Of a stretch of 32,166 nt of DNA, positions 3,250 through 25,304 are shown in pieces. The stretch's first letter is position 1. Each line of letters begins with the position of its first letter. Origin of the DNA: a virus; IMG/VR virus record IMGVR_UViG_3300030108_005115, positions 1 through 32,166 of that record. The stretch is one strand, 5' to 3'. The position numbers and the translations under genes were made by a program. The notes under the pieces are model-generated. The model worked only from the letters and a program-made list of their open reading frames with translations, made no database searches and was not told the DNA's origin.

Positions 3250-3598
3250 CGTATTTAAAAGATTTATTACAAACGTAACAACCACTGATTTGACCACAGT
3301 GTTTACTGTGCCCACTGCAAACGTAGCAGCTACACCTCCAGTGCCTGTGTCTACTTTTATTGTAAAAACAATCAACACTCACAATTATGATGGCTCTAAC
3401 TCTGTAACAGTTAATCTTGATCACAATGATGGCAGTGCAGATTTACAAGTTTTTCAGATCGACGTATCTGCTAGCAATACAAATACCATATCTACAAGCA
3501 TGGTATATCAAGAGGGTGATTCTATGAAAGTTCAAGCAAACGCCGCAAGTAGGGCTATGATTGAAGTATCTGTTTTGGAGATAAAACAACAACAATAG
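3242..3598 (+). CDS. Putative small beta-rich virion protein
   Basis: A 118-residue protein made almost entirely of alternating hydrophobic and polar beta-type stretches (TDLTTVFTVPTANVAATPP, STFIVKTINTHNYDG, NSVTVNLDHNDG, then SMKVQANAASRAMIEVSVLEI). It has no Cys, signal peptide or membrane segment. The composition fits a jelly-roll or immunoglobulin-like decoration or tail protein. It overlaps both neighbours. A virion role is inferred from composition and position. Confidence 0.65.
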   Translation: MADVFKRFITNVTTTDLTTVFTVPTANVAATPPVPVSTFIVKTINTHNYDGSNSVTVNLDHNDGSADLQVFQIDVSASNTNTISTSMVYQEGDSMKVQANAASRAMIEVSVLEIKQQQ

Positions 3599-4095
3599 TG
3601 AACTACATTTACAAAACTAAAGTTTTAAATCACAATAAAATTAAAAAACAATTATTGGAAATCTTTAATAAAATTCCAAAAAATTCAATAAACATTGAAA
3701 ATGAAAATATTGTGCATACAGATTGGAACTTACCAGCTGAGATGCATAGAGAATATGGTCCTTTGTTCTTAGAGGTTATAAAACCGCACATGATAAAAAT
3801 TACAAAAGACCTTAAATGCGCTGATTATGAAGTGCAAAATTTTTGGTTTCAAAGATATGAGCATAAAAATTATCATTCTTGGCATATACATCCCCGGGCA
3901 CATTTTGCAAACGTATATTTTGTTGAATGCCCTAAAGGTTTGAGCACTAAATTTAAACATTTTGAAGAGGAGTGTGAAGAAGGAGATATTATAAGTTTTC
4001 CTGCTTTTTTACCTCACAGCTCACCAATAATTACAGAAAATTCTGTTAAAACTATTATATCTTTTAACACCTCTATTCACTATGAACCAATATAA
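3598..4095 (+). CDS. Putative 2OG-Fe(II) oxygenase-like protein
   Basis: The 165-residue product resembles the small putative 2OG-Fe(II) oxygenases found in marine phages. WHIHPRAHFANVYFVE (near 99-114) gives the HxH that opens the metal site, and 'GDIISFPAFLPHSSPI' gives the distal His. 'VKTIISFN' follows, where the family usually has Arg or Lys for the 2OG carboxylate. The substrate is unknown; such enzymes may hydroxylate proteins or nucleic acids. GTG start in a TAGTG overlap with the previous stop, no Shine-Dalgarno site. It might instead be a non-enzymatic cupin-like virion protein. Fold assignment is moderately sure, activity not. Confidence 0.65.
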   Translation: MNYIYKTKVLNHNKIKKQLLEIFNKIPKNSINIENENIVHTDWNLPAEMHREYGPLFLEVIKPHMIKITKDLKCADYEVQNFWFQRYEHKNYHSWHIHPRAHFANVYFVECPKGLSTKFKHFEEECEEGDIISFPAFLPHSSPIITENSVKTIISFNTSIHYEPI

Positions 4096-9340: not shown

Positions 9341-12120
9341 TGAAAACTTATATGACATTAGCTGATGTTCTAGAGGCCGTGATGAAAGGTCAACAAAAAA
9401 CAAACATGCCTGAGATAAGTCCCGGCATACCTTTAGCAGACGTTCGTGCTATGGCAGAGGGTGATTTAGTTGAAGCTGGCACAGAACCCGATCTACCAAA
9501 AGATGCAGAGTTACCAAAAGTAAGCATACTTGGTATTGATTTTACTCAAGCTGCAGAAAAATATGCAACTGACGCTGGTCGATTTGAAACTGCAAAGATA
9601 CCCCTTGATAAAATGAAAGCTATAATTAACCAGGTAGCAACCGTAGGCATGGAAAAAGGTGTGCCTGAAGATTTGATTATGCAGGACATACAAACTTACA
9701 TGAACCGTTTTGGTTACACAGAAGACATGTTACATCCTGAGTCTGCAAGAGTAAAAAACATAGATGATAGATACAAATATTTTACAAATAGACCTAACCC
9801 CTTACCTGCTTTTAAGCTTTCAAGTGATATAGCTGCCAGTGTGGGTGGTGCTATTGCAGGAGCTAAAGTTGGAGCAAGGTTCGGTAGATTTTTTGGTTTA
9901 CCTGGTGCAGCTATCGGTAGTATCTTTGGAGGCACCGCGGGTTTAATAGCCAGTTTAGCTAACTATGAAAACTTAGTTACCGACCTTAATAGAAAAGGTG
10001 TTTTATATAGCCCTACTTTTGATGAGTTTGGTGACATGATAGGTTTTGAGGAAGGCATTAATCGACCGACTCAAGATGAATTAAAAGAATATTTAAAAAA
10101 AGAAGCTCAATTTGACTTAGCTTTTGGTGGTGCCCTCGTGGCTGCTAGACCTGTTCTTGGTTTATTTAAAGCAGGTTTTAATAAATTAGTCGGCGTAGAT
10201 CCTAAAGTATATCAGAGATTAAAAGACATAGGAGTAGATCCAGGTAGAGCTGAAGTTTCAAGTATTCCAATCATCAACTCTTTTCCTAATACGTTTGGTA
10301 GAATACCTTTCTTTGGTCCTGCCTTTCAAAAAGCTTACAAGAAAAATGCAGAAAAATTTGCAAAGGAAGGTGAAAGATTAATACCTGGGTTTAAAGATTT
10401 AACCATTGCAGCTCAAGGTGGACCAGCCACGATCTTGGCTGAGATGGGTGTCAATGTTAGAAAAGCTTTTTTAGATGCTAACGATGCAGCAATAAAAGAA
10501 GTGGTTAGACAATATAATCAAGTCGCAGACATAGGTCAGCAAATGGGTAAAGCTTTTGATATTCGTGAATTGATAAATGTCGCTAGACCTCTTCTTAAAA
10601 AAGTTCAGGCGTATGAAGATCTTGCACCTGATAAGTCAAGTGCACAAGCTTTTAAAATTTTAAATGAAATACTCGAGCCCAAGAATCCAGCTAACATCCC
10701 TGCAAACGGATTTGTAGATTATAACAGATTTAAGGCCTTGCGGTCATCAATAGCTGGTGCCATAGGTAACATGACTGAGGCAGGCACTAAGAGAACATAC
10801 AAAGAAGGTGTTGATGATTTTTTAGCCCTAGGTAGAGTATTAGACACAGCAGGGGGTAAACCGATTATGCCTGCTGGTATGAACCCCACAGAGTTTAACA
10901 ACCTTAGAGATGCTTTTATGAAAACATTAAAGGAAGCTGATACTAATTATGCTCAAACAGTTACATTGTTTGGCGGCACATTAAATCGTAATTTTAAAGG
11001 TGTGGGAGATTTTTACATTGAAGATCAAATAAGGTTAGGTGGTGACTTCACTAATGACATTTTTGAAAAAGCTTTTAAGTTTAATTCAATTGAAGGTGTA
11101 GAAACAATAAGAAAGATATTTAGTAAAGTAGACGGCGGTGATCAATTATTTAGAGATGCCGTTGCATTTAAAGTAGGTAAATCTTTTAGAGATGCGTTTG
11201 TATCTGAAGGAGCAGAAAGATTTGGACCAAGAGCTGCTTTGGAGGATATGGGCACACTTCGTTTCAGCACAGAAATATTTAAAAAGAATTTAGGATTAGA
11301 TCAAGTATCTAGTCTAGACAACTCTACATTACAAGGACTCGGTCATGCCTTGAAGAAAGCAAACTTAGTAGGTGACGGTGGCAAGGCTTTAGACGTAGAT
11401 ACTCTAAGAGATTTTTCAAATGCCACTGCTTTATTTTTCAATAATAAAAATTTTAATATGTCCACTTTCTTAGCAAGAAGAGCTCAGATTGGTGGTACAA
11501 AATCTATTTTAAGATCCATAACAGGTGGTGGTTTAGTTGCAACTGGTGGTGCAGTGACTGCCGGTGTGGTGCCAACATTAATAGGTTTGTTAGCTGCTCG
11601 ATATTCATCAAGATTGTTTGCTAATCCTTTCGTCATTAGACCATTCGCTGAAGCTTTAAAGGCTGCAGCAGATGGTAGGTTTTTAAAAAATCCTAAGGAA
11701 GTTGAAAACGTAGCAAGGTTACTTAAAAATTTATTTGATCAAGATAAAGAATTGTTTACTGATATGGAAAATGATTTCAATGAAATACAATCCAGAGCGG
11801 CTAATAATAGAATGTTTGATCTTGGATCAACGTTCTTTAATAATAAAGTTAATATGAATAATGCTAAGTTCGTAGGTGAAGTGGTTAATAAAACAAAAAA
11901 TCAAGTATCTAATTTAGCACCAAATACGGTTGTTTCTGCATCATCACAGGAGGCTCAATCACCAGAGGTACAAGTTAAGATTCCTGACCAAACTCAAGTG
12001 GCCAGACCAATAGTTCCCGATATTAATCAAATCATTGATAGACCTTTATCAGCACAAAGAGCTGAAGTTTTATTTCCACAAGATGAGTTATTACAAGCGT
12101 CATTAAAGAGGACAGTATAA
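9340..12120 (+). CDS. Putative large internal virion/ejectosome protein with glycine zippers
   Basis: A 926-residue protein with two membrane-active-looking segments. One lies near residues 165-210 (VGGAIAGAKVGARFGRFF, then GAAIGSIFGGTAGLIASLA). The other lies near 727-760 (GGGLVATGGAVTAGVVPTLI, then GLLAARYSSRLF). Between them are long amphipathic helices. Glycine-zipper pairs of this kind are typical of ejection proteins that form a channel across the cell envelope, and I infer that role. No transglycosylase or other enzymatic motif is obvious. ATG overlaps the preceding TAA, no Shine-Dalgarno site. It could alternatively be a tape-measure-like core protein. Confidence 0.6.
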   Translation: MKTYMTLADVLEAVMKGQQKTNMPEISPGIPLADVRAMAEGDLVEAGTEPDLPKDAELPKVSILGIDFTQAAEKYATDAGRFETAKIPLDKMKAIINQVATVGMEKGVPEDLIMQDIQTYMNRFGYTEDMLHPESARVKNIDDRYKYFTNRPNPLPAFKLSSDIAASVGGAIAGAKVGARFGRFFGLPGAAIGSIFGGTAGLIASLANYENLVTDLNRKGVLYSPTFDEFGDMIGFEEGINRPTQDELKEYLKKEAQFDLAFGGALVAARPVLGLFKAGFNKLVGVDPKVYQRLKDIGVDPGRAEVSSIPIINSFPNTFGRIPFFGPAFQKAYKKNAEKFAKEGERLIPGFKDLTIAAQGGPATILAEMGVNVRKAFLDANDAAIKEVVRQYNQVADIGQQMGKAFDIRELINVARPLLKKVQAYEDLAPDKSSAQAFKILNEILEPKNPANIPANGFVDYNRFKALRSSIAGAIGNMTEAGTKRTYKEGVDDFLALGRVLDTAGGKPIMPAGMNPTEFNNLRDAFMKTLKEADTNYAQTVTLFGGTLNRNFKGVGDFYIEDQIRLGGDFTNDIFEKAFKFNSIEGVETIRKIFSKVDGGDQLFRDAVAFKVGKSFRDAFVSEGAERFGPRAALEDMGTLRFSTEIFKKNLGLDQVSSLDNSTLQGLGHALKKANLVGDGGKALDVDTLRDFSNATALFFNNKNFNMSTFLARRAQIGGTKSILRSITGGGLVATGGAVTAGVVPTLIGLLAARYSSRLFANPFVIRPFAEALKAAADGRFLKNPKEVENVARLLKNLFDQDKELFTDMENDFNEIQSRAANNRMFDLGSTFFNNKVNMNNAKFVGEVVNKTKNQVSNLAPNTVVSASSQEAQSPEVQVKIPDQTQVARPIVPDINQIIDRPLSAQRAEVLFPQDELLQASLKRTV

Positions 12121-13429: not shown

Positions 13430-13654
13430 TTATTTACTTTTGTGAGATTCTAGGTGTTCTTCGATAGCATCCCATACTTCAACGTTTGACCAATGATGTA
13501 ACACGGCCTTTGACACATCCTCGTGTAAAACTTTTAAAGTTCTAATTCCCAAAGCAACAGGCTTACCCTTGTTCTCATATATGTGATCAACTTCGTCTTT
13601 TGTAAGGCTTAAGAAAACCTCACCGTTTTGATACATTATTCTCATACTCCACAC
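13430..13654 (-). CDS. Hypothetical small protein (74 residues)
   Basis: A charged protein with a beta-like N-terminus (MWSMRIMYQNGEVFLSLTKD) and an amphipathic C-terminal half ending EEHLESHKSK. It overlaps the end of the PP-loop gene by 13 bp, so it is the last gene of a three-gene leftward unit. No recognised motif. Confidence 0.6.
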   Translation of the reverse strand: MWSMRIMYQNGEVFLSLTKDEVDHIYENKGKPVALGIRTLKVLHEDVSKAVLHHWSNVEVWDAIEEHLESHKSK

Positions 13655-14484
13655 ATCCCTTCACAATCGTTAATAGCAACGCCACCAAGCTCATCAAACA
13701 TGTTAATCTGTTTGTCTTCTGCTTTTTTATCTATATCTATTTCACTTAAAGGCTTTCCCTCTTTAGTAACAAATACAGTGTAACCTTCACGCATACCTTT
13801 AAAGCCACCATTAATTTTCTTTTCAAACTCAATAACGTGTTGAAACTCATCAGGTGCTGTATCTTTTAAATGTTTCCATTCTTTCCATGTCTTGTAAGGA
13901 CAAAAGGTGCAAGCTGACCTTGGTGGTTTAGGCATAGCGTGATCATCAAACCATTTCTTACACATGGCTCTAGTAATATTTCTATCTACCAGAGGATAAA
14001 TATTTTTAATCCAAGGCTTTCTAGCCTCCTTAACACGATACATCTCATCACGAGATATACCCATGATCATGTCAACAACTGTGCCTTTTTTAACACGTTG
14101 TCCTTTTTTGTAACCCATTTGTTCTCTAATAAACTTATGAATAGGCTCTATTTTATAATGACCTGTACACTGCCTGGTAAGTATACCCATGCTGTTTTTC
14201 TTCGGGTCTTTTGTAAAGAAAGGTGGGGTTCTTGAAGTATGTAAACCCTCAGCTGCTTCAATAGAATCTGTTTCAATATTACCAGCGCTAATCACATGAA
14301 TGGGATAATTTTTTATTTTACCCTTCATCCAATCAAACCATTCATAAACTTCTTTTGGTTCTGCTTGTGTATCGGCAAACACAGCAAAGTCAGGCATTGG
14401 CCCTATCTCACCATACTCATACATAAAAGCTAACGTGCTTGATTGCACTCCCGCTCCTAAAGATAATACGCTTAAATCAGCCAT
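13642..14484 (-). CDS. PAPS-reductase-like PP-loop protein
   Basis: A 280-residue member of the PAPS reductase/ATP sulphurylase superfamily (adenine-nucleotide alpha hydrolase fold). The PP-loop is SLGAGVQSST (8-17). C106 in RQCTGHYKI, C175, and C192-x-x-C195 in 'SACTFCPYKTW' could bind a Fe-S cluster or zinc; two further cysteines lie at the C-terminus (CEGMCGV). In phages such proteins are usually named PAPS reductase, but the substrate is rarely known. Relatives activate nucleotides or thiolate DNA or tRNA (DndC, TtcA, ThiI). No dndD or dndE neighbour is present, so phosphorothioation is unsupported. It overlaps the SNF2 helicase gene by 13 bp, which points to a DNA- or RNA-linked function. 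Confidence 0.8.
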   Translation of the reverse strand: MADLSVLSLGAGVQSSTLAFMYEYGEIGPMPDFAVFADTQAEPKEVYEWFDWMKGKIKNYPIHVISAGNIETDSIEAAEGLHTSRTPPFFTKDPKKNSMGILTRQCTGHYKIEPIHKFIREQMGYKKGQRVKKGTVVDMIMGISRDEMYRVKEARKPWIKNIYPLVDRNITRAMCKKWFDDHAMPKPPRSACTFCPYKTWKEWKHLKDTAPDEFQHVIEFEKKINGGFKGMREGYTVFVTKEGKPLSEIDIDKKAEDKQINMFDELGGVAINDCEGMCGV

Positions 14485-22690: not shown

Positions 22691-22698
22691 TTTAAAGT

Positions 22699-22761
22699 TA
22701 TCCACAGATTCTTTTAATTTCTTTGCAAAATCGTTTCCAAAAATCACATAGTTTATACACA
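22699..22761. promoter_or_regulatory. Pair of consensus DnaA boxes, candidate origin
   Basis: TTATCCACA (22699-22707) and TTATACACA (22753-22761) both match the TTATNCACA DnaA box exactly, in the same orientation and 54 bp apart (about five helical turns). The second lies inside an inverted repeat, ACATAGT (22746-22752) and ACTATGT (22765-22771). The 113-bp gap right after polA is AT-rich. A host-DnaA-assisted origin is a reasonable inference. The inverted repeat may also end the polymerase transcript. Confidence 0.5.
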
Positions 22762-22803
22762 TAGACTATGTAAGAACTTAAAAGCTCTGGGAGGGGCTAT
22801 ATA

Positions 22804-23058
22804 ATGTTAACAAACAAGAAAGACCGTTGTGTAAACTGCGGTAAGAAATTAAAAAGAAAGTATGAAACAACATTTAGTGATAACGAAGCTAAGATGGCTC
22901 ACACGTCTAAATACAAAGACTATAGTAAGTCTTGGGACATCTGGGATGGTAAAACTTATTGGGCTTACGAAGGTTTGTTCGACACTTTACGTTGTGCAGC
23001 TAATTTTGCGGCCGGAGCATACAAAGCAGGCTATAGACGCAGAAAACGCACAAAATAA
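22804..23058 (+). CDS. Hypothetical small protein with one CxxC motif (84 residues)
   Basis: Starts MLTNKKDRCVNCGKKLKRK, giving a single C9-x-x-C12 zinc-ribbon-like knuckle. Aromatic residues follow (DYSKSWDIWDGKTYWAYEG) and the C-terminus is strongly basic (YKAGYRRRKRTK). One more Cys (C64) could complete a site only with a partner. A strong Shine-Dalgarno site GGGAGGGG lies 7 bp upstream. The basic tail suggests binding to nucleic acid. It stands alone between the DnaA boxes and the candidate structured RNA. Confidence 0.65.
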   Translation: MLTNKKDRCVNCGKKLKRKYETTFSDNEAKMAHTSKYKDYSKSWDIWDGKTYWAYEGLFDTLRCAANFAAGAYKAGYRRRKRTK

Positions 23059-23072
23059 GGAAAATAAAAACC

Positions 23073-23269
23073 GTTTTAAGAGCCATACAGGGCTATCCAA
23101 GAGATGGTCCTGTATGATTGGATCCAGGTAATTTGAAGGGATTAGTTGTTTCACCCTTAACTTTCGAAACACAGATAGACATCCTGACATTCTACTCGAA
23201 CCAAAGCTGATAGCCTCAAACACTTGTCCGTCAGCTACTTCGCCCTGTGCGTTATGGCTCTGTTAAAAC
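23073..23269. ncRNA. Candidate structured non-coding RNA, about 200 nt
   Basis: The ends pair: GTTTTAA+GAGCCAT (23073-23086) with ATGGCTC+TTAAAAC (23254-23260 and 23263-23269), 14 bp with a 2-nt bulge. Inside are CATACAGG/CCTGTATG (23084-23091, 23109-23116), AGCTGA/TCAGCT (23205-23210, 23231-23236), and an H-type pseudoknot. The pseudoknot is AAGGG/CCCTT (23136-23140, 23154-23158) crossed by TGTTTC/GAAACA (23147-23152, 23166-23171). ACAGGG can instead pair with CCCTGT (23243-23248), and GGCTATC (23091-23097) with GATAGCC (23209-23215), so two folds compete. It has no plausible ORF and is richer in G+C than its flanks. Read leftward, the outer stem is followed by GGTTTTTATTTT, like a terminator, so the strand is undecided. 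It matches no RNA class I know. Confidence 0.55.
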
Positions 23270-23285
23270 CATTATTCCGCCACAA

Positions 23286-23320
23286 TATTGAACTGATCAT
23301 ATTCAATAACCTGGTATAAT
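23286..23320 (+). promoter_or_regulatory. Inverted repeat overlapping an extended -10 promoter
   Basis: TATTGAA (23286-23292) and TTCAATA (23302-23308) form a perfect 7-bp inverted repeat with a 9-bp spacer, followed at once by TGGTATAAT (23312-23320), an extended -10. No well-spaced -35 is present. The repeat looks like an operator, perhaps for the ribbon-helix-helix protein at 23567. The A/T-rich stretch to 23374 holds nothing else I can identify. Confidence 0.45.
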
Positions 23321-23374
23321 ACATATGGATATAATAATTTTTTTTTCAACCAATAAATAATATTTTTTTAGGAG

Positions 23375-23404
23375 TTGACAATATAGTTTGAGATATTATA
23401 TAAT
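23375..23404 (+). promoter_or_regulatory. Strong consensus sigma-70 promoter
   Basis: TTGACA (23375-23380), an 18-bp spacer and TATAAT (23399-23404): both hexamers are perfect. The tract before it (23324-23370) is almost all A and T and could act as an UP element. It drives two tiny ORFs, the ribbon-helix-helix gene and probably the genes up to the hairpin at 24867. It is the best promoter by sequence in the window and is probably used very early. Confidence 0.75.
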
Positions 23405-25230: not shown

Positions 25231-25304
25231 CTCGTGGTGGCAGAAAGGCTATGCATCGCACTGCAACTGCGATCATGCGAGTTCGAATCTCGCCCACGAG
25301 TCCA
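25231..25304 (+). tRNA. trnC: tRNA-Cys (anticodon GCA)
   Basis: Acceptor CTCGTGG/CCACGAG (7 bp), D arm GCA/TGC with GG in the loop, and anticodon stem TCGCA/TGCGA with loop CTGCAAC giving anticodon GCA (25261-25264 region). The variable loop is TCAT. The T arm is GCGAG/CTCGC with loop TTCGAAT. The discriminator is T, as expected for tRNA-Cys, and CCA is encoded. All stems are perfect apart from the short D stem usual for this tRNA. It follows a gene stop with no gap and leads straight into the G-rich array, so it must be processed from a longer transcript. It may supply Cys codons or replace a host tRNA cut during infection. Confidence 0.95.

Follow-up and report, generated by a model that had tools for sequence, protein, structure and literature searches.

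In the intergenic DNA beyond the DNA polymerase gene of the viral contig analysed here (32,166 nt, the whole of which we call the window), the minus strand encodes a structured RNA that, judged by its helices and its homologues, is a divergent and rearranged relative of manA RNA (RF01745) with a different central hairpin. We think it reasonably likely that this manA-homologous variant, ~190-200 nt long, is transcribed from a promoter of its own and is free-standing rather than a gene leader.

Position and fold of the minus-strand RNA

The window is a viral contig, and the nearest counterparts of its DNA polymerase A, at 52-59% identity, come from the Pelagibacter phages HTVC023P and HTVC027P and from phage 023Pt_psg01. 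Other genes recognized in it are a ProV-like (glycine betaine/proline) ABC transporter ATPase at the contig start (43-780, score under the curated cut-off), auxiliary genes resembling a 2OG-Fe(II) oxygenase (3598-4095, plus strand) and a phosphoadenosine phosphosulfate reductase (13642-14484, minus strand), and a tRNA-Cys (GCA) gene (25231-25304). An earlier note had proposed a plus-strand RNA at 23073-23269, a 197-nt intergenic segment flanked by an 84-aa ORF on one side and by a strong plus-strand promoter on the other. That promoter is real as a consensus match (TTGACA-18-TATAAT, 12/12, 23375-23404). The origin-like DnaA boxes also reported there amount to a chance number, six in the window against 5.5 expected; those near the segment, TTATCCACA at 22698 and TTATACACA at 22753, are part of this chance-frequency pattern. 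The stretch holding them and the 84-aa ORF (22691-23058) is an indel: L006, L010, L011, L013, L015 and L018 have the RNA region immediately after polA, with no such ORF between.

The GC content of the RNA (0.41) exceeds that of its flanks (0.36 and 0.28) and of the window as a whole (0.38), and the longest perfect long-range helix, of 9 bp, was equalled in 0 of 60 shuffles. Relative to shuffled sequence the folding energy has a z of -2.56 for the plus strand and -1.61 for the minus strand, a margin that alone is little proof. Scans with both flanking proteins yielded 25 loci in related contigs, in 16 of which almost the full segment has a homologue (79-100% identity across ~250-260 nt). In L016 and L020-L023 only the first part, a hairpin, is present and the remainder is absent; the 197-nt segment is therefore composite, and the real RNA is shifted relative to it, running on the minus strand from 23316 to 23119. 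The separate hairpin perhaps has a role in 3' end processing. The segment is non-coding: a conserved protein, which would have refuted the note's RNA, is not found, nor is any protein family, and stops in all six frames across the clade rule out coding on either strand.

Covariation among homologues, which the note had named as a check, is present and significant, on the minus-strand structure. When the 35 pairs of this structure were mapped onto a ten-sequence alignment (window clade plus L131), pairing was retained in 98.9% of cells and 19 pairs (47 cells) were changed on both sides, counts which, because the sequences comprise only two subgroups and L131, are not independent events. None of 500 shuffles reached either the pairing or the double-change value, and sliding the partners by one column lowered pairing to 46%. 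The two subgroups of this reversed lineage are separated by compensatory double changes, which affect P3, P4b and P6. Over the alignment, P3 goes from ATGG/CCAT to ACAG/CTGT, P4b from GUAGC/GCUAU to AUGAC/GUCAU and UAGGC/GUCUA, and P6 from AAGGG/CCCTT to GGAGG/CCTCC. The outer helix P0, outside the 35-pair count, is CCGG/CCGG in the L018 group, a deletion paired on both sides. A further helix, P5a (TTCGA/TCGAA), was tried against the alignment and found unsupported. More distant homologues add independent support for the structure through RF01745, as described below.

The same alignment identifies the strand. Over 350 cells (P5a excluded), the number of standard pairs is 323 with the minus strand as the RNA and 287 with the plus strand, most of the minus misfits being due to the register of P5b, since revised for the 35-pair count; G·U cells number 39 and A·C cells 3. 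The minus strand is the RNA, and the G·U changes, those in the central domain among them, fit it alone. A plus-strand hint from a mini-stem (CAA/UUG to CAG/UUG) was overturned by the full pair table. Thus a folded RNA does exist at this locus, on the other strand and with other folds than those first drawn. The complementary arms of the proposed 14-bp outer helix are present (GTTTTAAGAGCCATA, 23073-23087, and TTATGGCTCTGTTAAAAC, 23252-23269); among nine related sequences, however, 14 of its 135 cells are broken, as are 5 of 54 in the ACAGGG/CCCTGT pairing and 13 of 63 in GGCTATC/GATAGCC, and in none of the three is a pair restored by a double Watson-Crick change. A switch between mutually exclusive alternative pairings, which break without compensation, is accordingly unsupported. 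The H-type pseudoknot of the note, too, had been placed on the wrong strand.

Table 1. Features of the predicted RNA and its surroundings, in window coordinates
Feature	Position	Strand	Basis or remark
Whole manA-like variant RNA, predicted	23119..23316	-	5' end at 23316; covariation; homologues also matched by RF01745
Match of covariance model R1 to the window	23113-23317	-	self-match by construction
P0 5' arm, CCAGGT	23309..23314	-	pairs with 23124-23129; alignment reading
P0 3' arm, ACCTGG	23124..23129	-	pairs with 23309-23314; alignment reading
P1 hairpin, ATTGAA/TTCAAT	23287..23307	-	double changes in 3 pairs
P2 closing helix 5' arm, TTG	23283..23285	-	pairs with 23133-23135; covariation count
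P2 closing helix 3' arm, CAA	23133..23135	-	pairs with 23283-23285; covariation count
GC/GC junction pairs, 23279-23280 with 23249-23250	within 23249..23280	-	around GGAATAA and TAAC
P3 hairpin, ATGG/CCAT	23272-23254	-	100% paired, double changes in 3 pairs
Variant central domain, P4 CAGGGC/GCTTTG and P4b GTAGC/GCTAT	23202..23247	-	double changes in 8 pairs
Almost invariant terminal loop, ACGGACAAGTGTTTGAG	23215..23231	-	one T/C difference across contigs
P5 region, TAGA/TCTA	23176..23194	-	weaker: 95% paired, a double change in one pair
P6 hairpin, AAGGG/CCCTT	23136..23158	-	100% paired, double changes in 3 pairs; GGAGG/CCTCC in L018 group
Separate hairpin, CATACAGG/CCTGTATG	23084..23116	not assigned	conserved after polA whether or not the RNA is present; outside the RNA
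Promoter-like site, TTGAAA 23349-23344, A-tract, 18-nt spacer, TATGTA 23325-23320	23320..23349	-	

The link to manA RNA

The note had assigned the segment to no known RNA class, and the window indeed has no match of its own to RF01745 at E<=10 and no useful match there to any Rfam family; its homologues, however, connect it to manA RNA. The conserved 15-mer CTCAAACACTTGTCC retrieved two further viral contigs, L069 and L087, both of which also carry TTCAGCCAC 44-45 nt beyond it; a two-part pattern search added L127, L128, L129 and L131, and a further pattern L274 and L275. In Rfam scans run with an E-value threshold, against RF01745 with its curated cut-off of 55.2 bits, L127 (55.5 bits) lies above that value, and L129 (53.0), L087 (50.5), L128 (49.6) and L131 (41.3) lie below it. 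All five matches span the entire model and lie on the other strand from the earlier plus-strand reading; L069 gave no match to RF01745. From the other direction, an independent covariance model (R1), derived from the window clade together with L131, finds seven distant loci (L275, L069, L129, L128, L087, L274 and L127; E 5e-10 to 2e-7), its strand agreeing with that of RF01745 wherever both match. Classical cyanophage manA gives no match with R1, and the link to manA therefore runs through a bridge group which is reached from both sides.

The pair tables and a joint alignment contain the scaffold helices of manA in order: the 5' hairpin, the closing helix, the junction pair, P3 and P6. The conserved core of manA, GUGACUGAAUAA with UAAGG, corresponds to GUGGCGGAAUAA with UAACG in the window and is approached more closely by L018 and the bridge homologues. 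In the central domain, classical manA has AGRTGGTGCTCGCT..., whereas the variant has a hairpin bearing the almost invariant ACGGACAAGUGUYUGAGG; the near-identity of ACGGACAAGTGTTTGAG spans pelagiphage-type and other viral contigs. On this evidence we call the window RNA manA-related rather than a member of RF01745 as currently defined, since it does not reach the cut-off, lacks the classical centre and does not occupy the usual gene position.

No phage isolate DNA resembling the segment was found, and an 18-base motif produced three matches among bacterial and archaeal genomes, about the chance level. The matches of another pattern, AAACACTTGTCC..CMGCCAC, were mostly unrelated, several being, by eye, an oxygenase-like protein on the minus strand, and a tRNA-like reading of the L087 region was ruled out when no tRNA was found there. 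L087, L127, L128, L129, L274 and L275 are tailed-virus contigs in which the variant RNA occupies long non-coding stretches, in L127 with a tRNA ~330 nt downstream; the host of the bridge group is possibly archaeal.

Orientation, transcription and alternative readings

manA RNA has been regarded since 2010 as a probable cis-regulatory riboswitch candidate (PMC2864571). Among 94 classical copies collected by the motif GTGACTGAATAAACTT (P-SSM2 being counted twice and some contigs possibly redundant), the next downstream ORF is co-directional in 91, which agrees with the published leader interpretation (PMC2864571); the upstream ORF lies on the same strand in 74 and on the opposite strand in 19. 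RF01745 confirmed all 15 copies scanned (cmscan) and, in a separate search, P-SSM2, where manA precedes purL, hsp20 and purM. In seven of the 94 copies (L151, L171, L186, L217, L250, L261 and L267) a tRNA gene, for Asn or Asp, starts 11-17 nt downstream. Cyanophage S-SSM7 (L273, 151363-151634) has a tRNA-Gly directly after manA, and the distances in all these cases span 1-17 nt; a leader preceding a tRNA gene is inconsistent with translational control. In S-SSM7 an annotated hypothetical protein, SSSM7_180 (L273, 2942-3073), lies almost wholly within the manA RNA and is probably no gene.

The window RNA opposes all nearby genes, and no expression platform was seen. The first co-directional ORF of at least 60 codons is 7.2 kb away, and none lies downstream in the retrieved DNA of ten related loci. 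In 023Pt_psg01 and HTVC027P (loci L276 and L278) polA is followed by purM, at the place taken by the manA-like RNA in the window clade. A promoter-like site just upstream of the RNA (Table 1) was present in all 13 sequences examined, in both subgroups of the reversed lineage, with TTGAAA, the A-tract and the 18-nt spacing invariant, the spacer sequence variable and a -10 element of TATGTA (weak, as in the window), TATATA or TATAAG. Transcription from it would start near 23313, within P0. We treat this minus-strand promoter as putative, because a stricter scan lists neither a minus-strand promoter nor an intrinsic terminator on that strand. A second reversed manA-like RNA with its own promoter-like site is probable, if not certain, in 023Pt_psg01, a complete seawater phage genome: a weak R1 match (19.7 bits, E 9e-4; 10249-10402, minus strand), within 408 nt that separate plus-strand genes and with TTGACA-17-TATATA just 5' of it, retains GUGGC.GAACAA..UAAUGCACAGG, the centre differing again. 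HTVC023P had no R1 match, and HTVC027P one at chance level only.

Retention of the fold by compensatory change after reversal, together with a retained promoter-like site, is most simply accounted for by a separately transcribed RNA that would act in trans or bind a partner. In the window's phage lineage the RNA lies, reversed, after the DNA polymerase gene and would be transcribed from its own promoter, heading away from the strong plus-strand promoter; during infection its fixed scaffold would then likely hold out the invariant loop to a partner, whether a protein, a metabolite or a second RNA.

Alternatively, the RNA might act in cis, on the DNA or the overlapping transcript, antisense transcription into the polymerase operon damping or terminating that operon while the fold stabilises or ends the transcript. 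The RNA does read toward the polA operon; in L018 and L011, 54-55 nt separate the polymerase stop from the 3' end of the RNA, and the missing minus-strand terminator would suit such read-through; such an action, however, needs neither the manA scaffold nor an almost invariant loop common to unrelated viruses, and we regard it as unlikely. Its orientation against all neighbours and its absence from the close relatives L016 and L020-L023 could also mark an ordinary manA leader, inverted by chance and now a drifting, functionless relic. A relic would be expected to accumulate broken pairs, and the double changes that preserve pairing in P3, P4b and P6, with the promoter-like site in both subgroups, largely refute this reading already and leave it quite improbable. 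That the RNA is instead a riboswitch-type leader of a small or unannotated minus-strand gene is suggested by the leader-like placement of classical manA, and by two variant copies that precede ORFs: L131, at the same position after polA and co-directional, by 17 nt, and L069, likewise co-directional, by 26 nt. A leader role for the variant elsewhere is thus possible; for the window RNA it is very unlikely, given the 7.2 kb that separate it from a co-directional ORF and the stops in every frame of the element. The plus-strand switch built on the 14-bp helix, despite real complementarity and the better plus-strand z, is scarcely credible in view of its uncompensated pair breakage, the G·U/A·C pattern and the assignment of its 5' arm to the separate conserved hairpin.

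The window RNA is thus probably a free-standing RNA, which calls into question the view that manA-type RNAs only control an adjacent gene. A fold kept by compensatory change and pointing away from every gene makes a case for an RNA acting alone, and the swapped central domain separates the scaffold from the likely specific site. More tentatively, and at somewhat less than even chances, manA-type RNAs in general may be at least partly free-standing, trans-acting viral RNAs, their scaffold serving as a module with an exchangeable centre that can be transcribed alone against the operon.

Comparison with known RNAs

manA RNA was described by Weinberg et al. in 2010 (PMC2864571) and revised in Rfam 14 (PMC7779021). 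It stands as a candidate riboswitch only, on a leader interpretation (PMC2864571), and we found no paper assigning it a ligand. The wcaG RNA (RF01761), another candidate riboswitch of marine phages, is reported beside manA in cyanophages (PMC2864571, PMC9964418); it was matched in none of our Rfam scans of the window or its homologues, and resembles the variant in its marine phage setting. The window RNA differs from RF01745 in its extra outer helix P0 and in falling under the detection of that model, and from classical manA in running opposite to the operon with no gene directly downstream. Its P2 is the counterpart of the manA helix GGGAG/CUCCC. Common to both are the order of helices, in which the hairpin-bearing core (GUGRCUGAAUAA..UAAGG in the joint alignment, less exactly kept in the window) is followed by a central domain, P5, and P6 with ARUCC, as well as their occurrence in marine viruses. 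The variant brings SAR11-phage-like and further tailed viruses into the family.
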